Source: a virus
DNA length: 64,000 nucleotides
Strand: one strand, 5' to 3'
IMG/VR virus record: IMGVR_UViG_3300020221_000005
Location: 1 to 64,000 of that record
The translations under genes and the position numbers were made by a program. Position 1 is the stretch's first letter. Each line of letters starts with the position of its first letter. Shown here piece after piece: positions 16,520 through 37,699 of the stretch. The notes under the pieces were generated by a model. It searched no databases. It had not been told where the DNA came from and saw nothing but the letters and a program-made list of their open reading frames with translations.

Positions 16520-16717
16520 ATGAAAAGCTTAACTGATAAAATTTATTGGGAAGTCTATGAGCAAGTCGATGATCAAGTCGATGATCAAGTCTGGGATCAA
16601 GTCGGTAATCAAGTTGGTAGACAAATCTGGGATCAAGTCGGTAGTCAAATCTGGAATCACGTCGGTAGGCAAGTCTGGAATCAAGTCTGGAATAAAGTCG
16701 ATGAAAAGCTTAACTGA
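16520..16717 (+). CDS. QV-repeat protein 1
   Basis: 65 residues. After MKSLTDKIYWEVYE comes a tetrapeptide pattern xQV(D/W/G)x: DDQV, WDQV, GNQV, GRQI, WDQV, GSQI. It ends VDEKLN. Its last bases contain the start of the next copy (17-nt overlap). The pattern resembles the internal QV repeats of bacterial DUF6745 proteins. Confidence 0.55.
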   Translation: MKSLTDKIYWEVYEQVDDQVDDQVWDQVGNQVGRQIWDQVGSQIWNHVGRQVWNQVWNKVDEKLN

Positions 16718-16898
16718 TAAAATTTATTGGGAAGTCTATGAGCAAGTCGATGATCAAGTCTGGGATCAAGTCGGTAATCAAGTTGGTAGACAAATCTGGG
16801 ATCAAGCCGGTAGTCAAGTTAGTAGACAAATCTGGGATCAAATCGGTAGTCAAGTCGGTAGACAAATCTGGGATCAAGTCGATGAAAAGCTTAACTGA
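16701..16898 (+). CDS. QV-repeat protein 2
   Basis: 65 residues, same head MKSLTDKIYWEV and tail VDEKLN as copy 1, middle repeats WDQV, GNQV, GRQI, WDQA, GSQV. A longer in-frame start at 16557 would read copy 1 out of frame and is rejected. Stop overlaps the start of copy 3 by 17 nt. Confidence 0.55.
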   Translation: MKSLTDKIYWEVYEQVDDQVWDQVGNQVGRQIWDQAGSQVSRQIWDQIGSQVGRQIWDQVDEKLN

Positions 16899-17091
16899 TA
16901 AAATTTATTGGGAAGTCGATGATCAAGTCTGGGATCAGGTCGGTAGTCAAGTCGGTAGTCAAATCTGGGATCAAGTCGGTAGTCAAGTTGGTAGGCAAGT
17001 CTGGGATCAAGTCTGGGATCAAGTCGGTAGTCAAGTCCGGAATCAAGTTTATGGAATCAATTCGGGATTGATTCAGTTAGTTGACAATTAG
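16882..17091 (+). CDS. QV-repeat protein 3
   Basis: 69 residues. Head MKSLTDKIYWEV, then DDQVWDQVGSQVGSQIW and further repeats, but a different tail (YGINSGLIQLVDN). Last of three tandem ORFs joined by overlapping stop/start. Confidence 0.55.
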   Translation: MKSLTDKIYWEVDDQVWDQVGSQVGSQIWDQVGSQVGRQVWDQVWDQVGSQVRNQVYGINSGLIQLVDN

Positions 17092-20426: not shown

Positions 20427-20735
20427 ATGAAAAATAAAAAAGACAACATCATCGCTGCTCTTGAAAAAACTCAGATTCTTGGCATAGGAGATCGGTGGGG
20501 CGGGTCTGATTATTTGATTCACTCTTGGGATATTGGCGCGGACGAGTCAGATTTCGCGTTGGCGTTTTCTTACACCGATTATGAGGGAATGATTTACGAA
20601 TTTGCATTTACTTGGGAATCAATAAACGATGCCGTTTTGTTTCCCGGTGGATTTTCTCTCAAAGATGATACAGGAGAAATGGTAGATATTCAGTTGTATG
20701 GACTAGAGGCAATAAATGTTACAGAAATATCGTGA
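20427..20735 (+). CDS. Hypothetical protein
   Basis: 102 residues from ATG 20427 (an in-frame TTG at 20391 is the -35 box). Acidic, aromatic-rich (DESDFALAFSYTDYEGMIYE). The stop TGA overlaps the GTG start of the phosphoesterase gene, implying coupling. Not recognised. Confidence 0.6.
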   Translation: MKNKKDNIIAALEKTQILGIGDRWGGSDYLIHSWDIGADESDFALAFSYTDYEGMIYEFAFTWESINDAVLFPGGFSLKDDTGEMVDIQLYGLEAINVTEIS

Positions 20736-21487
20736 AACTTGACAGTTCAAATAAAAGAATCTTAGTCATTTCCGACATTCATCAAGAATCTGACAAAGCG
20801 AACAAAATAATCAAAAAGGAAGATGCTGATGAAGTTGTGATTTTAGGAGATTTTTTTGATTCTTTTCAGAAAAACTCTGAGAGTGACACTGAAAAAACTT
20901 GTAATTTTTTATTAGAATGTTTTCAAACCGAAAAAATGTTTGTTTTATGGGGAAACCATGACCTTCATTATTTTCACCCCAGTCGACACACGATCTGCTC
21001 AGGATATTCTTCCATTAGACAAACCAGTATTAACACATTATTATATCCGATTAAAAATTATTTGTCAAAAAAATTTAAATGGTATATTCAAATAGATGAT
21101 TTTATTTGCACTCACGCAGGACTTAGTTCATTTCATTTTTATCCTAATCTTAATCTGGAAAAAATTTCTGAATGGTTAGATCAAGAATCAGAAACTGCAA
21201 CAATTAAATTGGAAACAAACGACTCGCATTGGTTCTATGGAGCAGGTAAAGCTCGTCGTGGCAAACTCGAAAAGGGCGGAATTGTTTGGCTTGATTTTAA
21301 TTATGAGTTTGAACCGATAAACGGATTGAAACAGATAATGGGCCACACTTTTGAAAAAATAATTCGACCAGATTATTCGGAAAAGTCAAGCAATCCTAAT
21401 GACTGGCGAAATATCTGCATTGATTGTAATTTAAATCAGTATCTTATTATTGATAACAAAAAAATAAAAGTGGTTGACTTTGTTTAA
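20732..21487 (+). CDS. Calcineurin-like metallophosphoesterase
   Basis: 251 residues, GTG start in a GTGA overlap. Metal-binding motifs in order: SDIHQE (about 14-19), GDFFDS (about 39-44), GNHDLH (about 74-79), CTHAGL and a late GHTFE. This is the standard metallophosphatase fold; the substrate (nucleotide, phosphoprotein or RNA end) cannot be told from sequence. tRNA-Met follows. Confidence 0.88.
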   Translation: MKLDSSNKRILVISDIHQESDKANKIIKKEDADEVVILGDFFDSFQKNSESDTEKTCNFLLECFQTEKMFVLWGNHDLHYFHPSRHTICSGYSSIRQTSINTLLYPIKNYLSKKFKWYIQIDDFICTHAGLSSFHFYPNLNLEKISEWLDQESETATIKLETNDSHWFYGAGKARRGKLEKGGIVWLDFNYEFEPINGLKQIMGHTFEKIIRPDYSEKSSNPNDWRNICIDCNLNQYLIIDNKKIKVVDFV

Positions 21488-21513
21488 CGGTTTTATAAAA
21501 TTAAATGGTTTTC

Positions 21514-21590
21514 GGGCCCATAGCTCAATTGGTTAGAGCAAAGAACTCATAATTCTTGGGTTGTCGGTTCAAGTCCGGCTGGGCCCACCA
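21514..21590 (+). tRNA. tRNA-Met(CAT), elongator or Ile2
   Basis: 77 nt with CCA. Acceptor GGGCCCA/TGGGCCC fully paired (so not an initiator), anticodon stem AAGAA/TTCTT with loop CTCATAA (CAT 21548-21550). If the C is modified to lysidine it would read AUA as Ile. Confidence 0.9.
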
Positions 21591-21722
21591 ATTTAAAAAT
21601 ATCACAATGCAACAAATTATTACTATTTATAAATAATATTATAGGCAAATCATATCGTGAACGGTTGGTAAAGTTTAAACTAGAAAATCAATAAAGAACT
21701 AACACTGAACACGAATCAATCA

Positions 21723-23090
21723 ATGAACATGAACTCGCATCGTCGAACGTTTCTCAAGGGCGTCACCCTCGGAGCAGGAGCGGTAGTGCTGCAACCGGTG
21801 CTGCAGCAACTGCACGCCGAGGCCAACGGCAAAGCCGCCCCACGGAGGATTGTCTTTTTCCTCGAAGGCAACGGCATGCCCCCCGCGCACATCCAGCCGG
21901 TGGGACTGGATCGCCCGGAGGGTGCAAATAACGGGAGCGACAAACTTATCGACGAGTCCCTGGCGAAATACAAACTGCCCGATCCGATCGCGGCGCTGGC
22001 TCCCTTCCAGAACCGCATGACGATCATCCAGGGGCTTTCTCACAAGATCGCATCGGGGCGCGGTCACTCGCCGGAGTTTGGATCTCTGGGTTGCTACAGC
22101 GGCGCGGCGGGACCGATCGAGCAGACCATCGACGCGGCGCTGGCGGCCAAATTGCCGAGTGTTGTACCGCATCTGGGTTTGGCTCTGACTCCCAGCGCCG
22201 AGTCGATCGTCAGTTACTCCTGTTCGGTCACGTCCAAAGGAAAGCCGCTTCCGTTGCTTTGCAAGCCGGAACTCGCCTTCCAGTCGCTGTTCGGCAGTGC
22301 CGCCGGGGGAGAGGCCGCCAAGACTCCCTTCCTGCGACAGAAGCTGATGGATTACATGAGCGGGGATATTAAGCGAGTCCAATCGCAGTTGGCCGGACCG
22401 GAGCGAGAGAGCCTCGACCGATACCTCGAAGCGTACGAAACGATGCTCGATCGTCACCACGGCATCATCGGCATGAAGGACGCATTGAAGGCGAACATGC
22501 CTAATACCGACAAGTTCAAGAGCACGAAAGAGACCGACCGTCTCGAAGCGCAGTGCGACATGGCCGCCAGTTCGTTGCTGTCGGGCCTGACGAATGTGGT
22601 CACGATCTCTGCCTGTACGGGGAACAGCTACATGCAGTGGAACAGTCTCGGCATGACGCTTCGCACCAACGCCATCGGTCACGGTGGCGGGGAAAATGGC
22701 AAGACATCCGATGAACTGCTGAGAATTATTCGAGCGTTCCATGCCGAGCGGATCGCCGCCTTGGCGAAGAAACTGGACGCCGTCAAGGAAGGCAACGGCA
22801 CGGTGCTCGACAACACGCTGATCGTTTACATGAGCGACTTCGGCGACCGTCACCATCCGTCCTACCTGCAGTGGCCGGTGGTGCTCATTGGCAACTTGGG
22901 CGGCAAGCTAAAGACCAATGGACGATTCCTGGAATATCCTCGCTACGGTGTCAAAGGACATCGAACCATCGGGACGTTGTATCAAGGCCTGCTCCACACG
23001 GTGGGCGACAACCGCGAGCAGTTCAACAACGTCGATCTGGCACTCGACAAGAGCGCCACGCAAGGACCGCTGTCCGAGATCCTGGCGTAG
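21723..23090 (+). CDS. DUF1552 protein with Tat signal, captured gene
   Basis: 455 residues, apparently complete. The N-terminus MNMNSHRRTFLKG (twin-arginine RRTFLK, 7-12) followed by a hydrophobic stretch is a Tat export signal. The body has FFLEGNGMPPAHI, GLSHKIASGRGHSPEFGSLG and YMSDFGDRHHP, typical of DUF1552 proteins abundant in Planctomycetota and Verrucomicrobiota. Codons are GC-rich against an AT-rich background and there is no local-type promoter, both signs of recent transfer. Role in a phage unknown; a long minus-strand ORF here is a GC artefact. Confidence 0.88.
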   Translation: MNMNSHRRTFLKGVTLGAGAVVLQPVLQQLHAEANGKAAPRRIVFFLEGNGMPPAHIQPVGLDRPEGANNGSDKLIDESLAKYKLPDPIAALAPFQNRMTIIQGLSHKIASGRGHSPEFGSLGCYSGAAGPIEQTIDAALAAKLPSVVPHLGLALTPSAESIVSYSCSVTSKGKPLPLLCKPELAFQSLFGSAAGGEAAKTPFLRQKLMDYMSGDIKRVQSQLAGPERESLDRYLEAYETMLDRHHGIIGMKDALKANMPNTDKFKSTKETDRLEAQCDMAASSLLSGLTNVVTISACTGNSYMQWNSLGMTLRTNAIGHGGGENGKTSDELLRIIRAFHAERIAALAKKLDAVKEGNGTVLDNTLIVYMSDFGDRHHPSYLQWPVVLIGNLGGKLKTNGRFLEYPRYGVKGHRTIGTLYQGLLHTVGDNREQFNNVDLALDKSATQGPLSEILA

Positions 23091-23115
23091 GAAAATAATT
23101 CGAGCAGACTGATTT

Positions 23116-23295
23116 ATGAAAGACTCCGCTAAATATAAGCAGGCGAGCGAAATGGTCTTGAATAGTCTACCTAGTTGGAAACGTGAAGCAATAAAAGAAG
23201 ATCGAATTAATGGCAATTTCGACAGTCAAATAATGAATGAATTTGCCCGCAAAGTGGTGACGCTTGTAGAACAAGAAAAAACTAAGTTCGATTGA
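23116..23295 (+). CDS. Small protein, LPxWK family copy 1
   Basis: 59 residues. Paralogue of 26029-26244: LP(S/A)WK, AIK.(D), GNF.S..MNE(F/Y)A(R)K.V..LV. Its AT-rich composition contrasts with the DUF1552 gene ending 25 bp upstream, so the captured gene may have landed between this gene and its promoter. Confidence 0.6.
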   Translation: MKDSAKYKQASEMVLNSLPSWKREAIKEDRINGNFDSQIMNEFARKVVTLVEQEKTKFD

Positions 23296-26004: not shown

Positions 26005-26028
26005 CTTTTTAAGTTGGTTTTATTTTTT

Positions 26029-26244
26029 ATGCCTTCTAAAAAACAAAAACCCGGTTTTAGGACAAACTTAAGAAATCGTTACGAATTGGCGAGTCATTCA
26101 ATTTTTAATAAACTGCCTGCGTGGAAACAATCCGCGATTAAAATTGATCGACAAACAGGTAATTTTAACAGTCATGTAATGAACGAATATGCTAAACAAG
26201 TCGAAAATCTTGTCAATGATAACACTGAAATATTTTTGACGTAA
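26029..26244 (+). CDS. Small basic protein, LPxWK family copy 2
   Basis: 71 residues from ATG 26029. LPAWKQSAIKIDRQTGNFNS and MNEYAKQVENLV align with the 23116 product. Basic N-terminus MPSKKQKPGF. No standard promoter is visible, so it probably rides on the 25789 transcript. Confidence 0.6.
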   Translation: MPSKKQKPGFRTNLRNRYELASHSIFNKLPAWKQSAIKIDRQTGNFNSHVMNEYAKQVENLVNDNTEIFLT

Positions 26245-37224: not shown

Positions 37225-37600
37225 GGGGATGTAATGGTTTCGACAATAGTTAGAGAGAGTATTTGGCACGTCGGGGATGATAGTTGGCCTCGTAAAGAAT
37301 CTATCAAGAAGATAAACGCTAAAAACGTAATCGCATATGACTTCATTCCTGTTGAGGAAGAAGTTCTTGTTGTGGCTTAATTATAAGTCACCCATAATTA
37401 GGATGATGCACAATAGTTTTAATTATGACATTATTGTGATTGGCATTAAAAAGTGATTTAAGTTAATGTTGAAATATAAATCTTAAGATAAACAACTTTT
37501 GAGTTTTAGAATTGTTTTTACGAAAATATTAAAAACTATAAGCGTGTAGTCAGGTAATTTGTATAATTATTGGACTCGGGTTCAACTCCCGACATCTCCA
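37225..37600 (+). ncRNA. ssrA: tmRNA (ssrA)
   Basis: 5' GGGGATG and 3' CATCTCC pair as the acceptor stem; GTTTCGACA follows the 5' end as in tmRNAs, and the T arm is ACTCGGGTTCAACTCCCGA. No encoded CCA. The tag reading frame 37318-37380 begins with GCT and reads AKNVIAYDFIPVEEEVLVVA then TAA. About 376 nt, normal for one-piece tmRNA. It would rescue stalled ribosomes and tag products. The LVVA ending differs from the usual LAA. Confidence 0.92.
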
Positions 37601-37699
37601 GAGCACAGTAGAATATCACCTTCACGTTGGTTGTGCTTGAGTAACGCCGAGAATATTCTGTATTAGTTTAGATTTTACTTTAACGATCTTATTATTCCG

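Follow-up and report, generated by a model that had tools for sequence, protein, structure and literature searches.

DUF1552 proteins (Pfam PF07586, now called HXXSHH) are encoded in Verrucomicrobiota and Planctomycetota by genes paired with PSCyt3/PSD4 genes, and T4-like phages carry host-derived cargo in the form of morons and auxiliary metabolic genes. Few phages are known for PVC bacteria. In freshwater Verrucomicrobia, PSCyt3 genes usually adjoin a family of unknown genes (PMC5615132). We analysed a window of 64,000 nucleotides, positions 1 to 64,000 of the 103,351-bp virus record IMGVR_UViG_3300020221_000005, in which one DUF1552 gene lies among phage genes (Table 1). The gene resembles its bacterial counterparts in its full-length domain, its Tat signal and its close sequence identity, but it stands alone, without bacterial neighbours, a promoter or the PSCyt3/PSD partner, the last being a matter of genomic context and not a requirement of the family. 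It resembles the known cargo of T4-like phages as a single intact host-type gene among small phage genes in a tRNA-bearing region; unlike that cargo, it is unadapted in composition and promoter, and it occurs in no relative found.

Results

An intact DUF1552 gene in a T4-like phage contig

The 455-aa product covers the PF07586 profile end to end (1-307 of 307; E-value 2.4e-37), and its 129.6 bits lie well above the curated cut-off of 30 bits. Residues 7-23, including RRTFLK, match the Tat signal profile TIGR01409 at 17.3 bits (cut-off 16.7 bits). The full-length match and the twin-arginine N-terminus place the protein in the family and bear out the initial annotation, which had read a complete DUF1552 gene with a twin-arginine signal in exactly this reading frame. 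It is the only DUF1552 gene in the record.

The contig also encodes rIIA, rIIB, a baseplate wedge protein, a DNA primase, an SbcCD-like nuclease and a gp17-type large terminase; rIIA, rIIB, the baseplate wedge and the terminase identify it as T4-like. The nearest isolated relatives of the terminase belong to Microcystis phage Mel-JY01 (52%) and to Flavobacterium phages (48%). IMG sample 3300020074, which belongs to the Lake Tanganyika metagenomes (PMC8245535), contains an 8.3-kb contig that matches another part of the record at 100% identity over 5,409 bp. The ORFs adjoining the insert are intact. A related phage contig, L090, carries homologues of genes from either side of the insert within 20 kb, and both flanks thus derive from one phage type. 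Gene order around the DUF1552 locus is not conserved. The ORFs at 23116-23295 and 26014-26244 are alike and match the same L090 ORF, the second of an operon in that contig; the former is the one now directly behind the DUF1552 gene.

Table 1 Features at and around the DUF1552 insert (window coordinates)
Feature	Position	Strand	Details
Phage metallophosphoesterase gene	20732..21487	+	PF00149, E 1.2e-13; phrog_1649; upstream of tRNA-Met
Nearest sigma-70-like promoter (TTGACT-16-TAAAAT)	21474..21501	+	5' of tRNA-Met
Phage tRNA-Met (CAT)	21514..21590	+	ARAGORN; Rfam RF00005, 70.8 bits; directly upstream of DUF1552 gene
5' junction zone	21660..21722	+	blastn start at 21702 (L002), 21710 (L004) and 21717 (L003); composition
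DUF1552 (PF07586, HXXSHH) gene	21723..23090	+	Intact, ATG to TAG, 455 codons; Tat signal; GC3 0.75
Bacterial-derived tail after stop	23091..23103	+	GGAAAATAATTC; aligned bacterial sequence GGAGGATAAGTC (Shine-Dalgarno stretch of the next gene)
Small phage ORF, 59 aa	23116..23295	+	Directly downstream of DUF1552 gene; without own promoter; homologue (56%) in L090

Composition and promoter context

With a GC content of 0.596, the gene stands out from a contig of roughly 30-40% GC, and the step in GC matches its edges on both sides. Its GC3 of 0.75 contrasts with values of 0.21-0.36 in typical flanking ORFs, though values of up to 0.5-0.62 do occur in some of the small phage ORFs close by. The gene had been described as having GC-rich codons in AT-rich surroundings and lacking a phage-type promoter, and both observations hold. 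The + strand has 27 copies of a promoter cassette of the form TTGACw-N15-18-TAnnnT-N3-12-ATG, against 0-3 in shuffled sequences. The cassette adjoins about 20 neighbouring phage genes, including most of the small ones, but not the DUF1552 gene. The cassettes are spread over window positions 2620-38337 (+), for example at 2894, 8738, 25420, 25755, 27557 and 31566, and since they end only 3-12 nt 5' of the ATG, transcripts of the small genes would be nearly leaderless. An octamer, TATAAATA, lies 88 nt 5' of the DUF1552 gene. Transcription of this gene would need to read through from the promoter at 21474, which lies in front of tRNA-Met.

DUF1552 genes in other phages

The initial annotation had held that DUF1552 is not a phage family, and our searches agree with it. 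No member was detected by tblastn in 50,697 phage records, in PHROGs, or in IMG/VR by single-sequence and alignment scans using a few peptide patterns each. The Pfam profile found none in 21 related virus records, a weak negative, as several of these are fragments and the scan returned no profile matches at all. Among related virus loci, no other large GC-outlier gene was clearly bacterial, as judged by composition only. The gene is the first phage DUF1552 found in these searches and an unusual cargo, whereas phage capture of host genes as such is already known.

Bacterial origin and age of the gene

The nearest bacterial lineage is represented by a Verrucomicrobiota MAG, LBMAG_Verrucomicrobia_hypo.bin3 (L002), whose orthologue shares 89% amino-acid identity with the phage copy and 87% DNA identity across window positions 21702-23101 (blastn). 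Next follow Planctomycetia/Gemmata MAGs (76-77%) and Opitutae/Verrucomicrobia MAGs (73-74%). In the tree, the phage copy is sister to L002/L170 with a support of 96/96, and the end branches are equal in length (0.061 and 0.057). In L002, the gene upstream of the orthologue encodes a PSCyt1-PSD5-PSD4-PSCyt3-PSD2 protein, an order consistent with the pattern reported for freshwater Verrucomicrobia (PMC5615132). Five bacterial genomes contain 16-29 matches each, yet near orthologues of the phage-borne gene are rare, and the orthologue group is patchy, being present in 1/213, 2/102 and 2/273 genomes of the three orders sampled. Scoring the best candidates per genome, we found no donor closer than L002 in the 213 genomes of its order. 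Plasmid-borne DUF1552 genes are just 22-28% identical to the phage copy.

Polarised changes on the phage branch comprise 21 GC-to-AT and 11 AT-to-GC substitutions; the corresponding counts for the L002 branch are 33 and 15. The AT bias is no higher than on the bacterial branch, indicating that the gene has not ameliorated towards the AT-rich phage. The dN/dS between the phage copy and L002 is 0.18, within the range of 0.14-0.19 between bacteria. The gene thus shows the usual purifying selection, without drift towards AT or accelerated evolution, so either it has been in an AT-rich phage too briefly to change or it was never there. The dN/dS value is no proof of selection in the phage, because most of the divergence may predate capture. 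Taken together, the 89% identity to a Verrucomicrobiota MAG, the lack of compositional drift and the equal branch lengths strongly support a recent origin from a PVC bacterium.

Junctions of the insert

Homology to bacteria ends at window position 23101 in three bacterial loci (blastn), ~11 nt beyond the stop codon, and the 3' junction lies at about 23101-23105. Within this tail, phage TAGGAAAATAATTC corresponds in the alignment to TAGGAGGATAAGTC(ATG), where the following gene in the bacterial orthologues has its ribosome-binding site; the former Shine-Dalgarno stretch has lost G's (GGAGGATAAG to GGAAAATAAT, three changes). Because homology continues past the stop codon, a fragment of roughly 1.4 kb would have been taken from genomic DNA or copied from a polycistronic transcript, minus the usual PSCyt3/PSD cytochrome neighbour. 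The 5' junction was placed to a zone and not to a single base (Table 1). The longest word shared by the two junctions has 6 bases and was matched in 64% of shuffles; at this chance level no target-site duplication can be claimed. Searches with the metallophosphoesterase, the 59-aa ORF and exact flank and junction patterns found neither a record spanning either junction nor a relative with an empty site.

Predicted fold

An AlphaFold model of the DUF1552 protein has middling confidence (pLDDT 69.6, pTM 0.78). Foldseek returned weak E-values (best 0.004), and the candidates, when re-aligned, comprised PafA phosphatase, NPP phosphodiesterases and sulfatases, with Z-scores of 13.6-15.9 over 227-273 residues. 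The model suggests that the protein is probably exported with an alkaline-phosphatase-superfamily fold, although it shares only 9-13% identity with these enzymes. The usual strand-end motif of the superfamily is SDHG; the putatively corresponding stretch in the DUF1552 sequence reads MSDFGDRHH. A sequence search of solved structures found no relative, and a structure search of viral structure models with the predicted model found no match.

Discussion

The initial annotation had left two explanations side by side: either the phage captured the gene from its host very recently, or the assembly joined unrelated sequences. Recent PVC origin is strongly supported and the evidence favours capture, with the host as donor a further step that we only infer. 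We consider it likely that a gene of a PVC bacterium, probably that of the host, was captured very recently by illegitimate recombination and that it is now probably a passenger. On this reading, a lytic lake-water phage of the T4-like kind would have taken the DNA from a PVC bacterium, most likely its host, whose nearest sampled relative is the Verrucomicrobiota MAG. During infection, illegitimate recombination would bring ~1.4 kb of bacterial chromosome into the phage, namely exactly one intact DUF1552 gene together with some dozen bases of the intergenic DNA behind it, and the fragment would come to sit between the phage tRNA-Met and the 59-aa ORF. The gene is read as a passenger at present because it has no promoter cassette and would rely on the tRNA-Met promoter, read-through from which would be its only source of transcript. 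If expressed, the product may be exported by the Tat system of the host as a protein of the predicted alkaline-phosphatase-superfamily fold.

The assembler may instead have joined a short bacterial sequence into the phage contig. The composition step at both edges, the missing promoter cassette and the lack of an independent contig across the junctions are what such a chimera would leave behind, and bacterial composition without amelioration is equally compatible with an artefact and with recent capture. But the assembler would have had to make two independent joins, each to the same phage type, and these would have to cut close to both ends of one intact gene, ~11 nt past its stop codon, while leaving the adjoining ORFs intact. 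The loss of G's from the old Shine-Dalgarno stretch, expected once the downstream gene is gone, speaks against a chimera too, weakly, as it amounts to three changes. We therefore favour capture over a join and regard the latter as unlikely. Delivery by an intermediate, such as another phage, a plasmid or a gene-transfer particle, would make the gene uninformative about the host. The patchy orthologue group suggests possible movement between lineages, but DUF1552 was not found in other phages, its plasmid-borne members are distant, and the junctions carry no significant repeats; we judge this route very unlikely. The gene, if real, had also been called a direct pointer to the host. A PVC bacterium as donor stands, and the gene is useful as a lead to the host. 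Donor and usual host may still differ, however, and a PVC host is tentative because, by terminase, the closest isolates are phages of Microcystis and Flavobacterium.

The gene could instead be adaptive cargo, its exported product being used in infection, for example by modifying host surface polysaccharide or phosphate and sulfate esters, and kept by selection. The reading frame, the Tat signal and the conserved core are all kept, dN/dS is 0.18, and the predicted fold resembles PafA phosphatase, NPP phosphodiesterases and sulfatases (Z 14-16). Yet the measured divergence may mostly predate capture, the phage promoter cassette and the usual cytochrome partner gene are missing, no related phage was found with a DUF1552 gene, and the fold rests on a middling model with weak Foldseek E-values; selected cargo is accordingly an improbable reading. 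More specifically, it is very unlikely that a lytic phage of PVC bacteria uses the predicted alkaline-phosphatase-fold protein, secreted and captured apart from its cytochrome partner, to change the envelope or periplasm of the host it infects, but such a role, if true, would make the protein the first from the planctomycete-specific secreted protein sets to be borne by a phage.

Phages are known to capture genes, and the finding alone shows no new mechanism. If the junctions are real in virions, capture would here be frozen almost at its moment in a lytic phage, with a whole gene of bacterial composition, a scrap of a ribosome-binding site and no phage promoter, and the locus would link PVC bacteria with a group of T4-like lake phages about which little is known.

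Other features of the phage contig

A complete, phage-borne tmRNA gene lies at 37225-37603 (+) (Rfam RF00023, 122.8 bits), with the predicted tag AKNVIAYDFIPVEEEVLVVA. Over window positions 16520-17091 (+), a short unit that codes for QVxDQVGxQV-like peptides is repeated imperfectly, and a longer stretch, GATGAAAAGCTTAACTGATAAAATTTATTGGGAAGTC, occurs three times there. Related phage contigs carry very large tRNA sets, 22 in L090 (10763-19217) and 15 in L091 (4999-14432); the window has 8.
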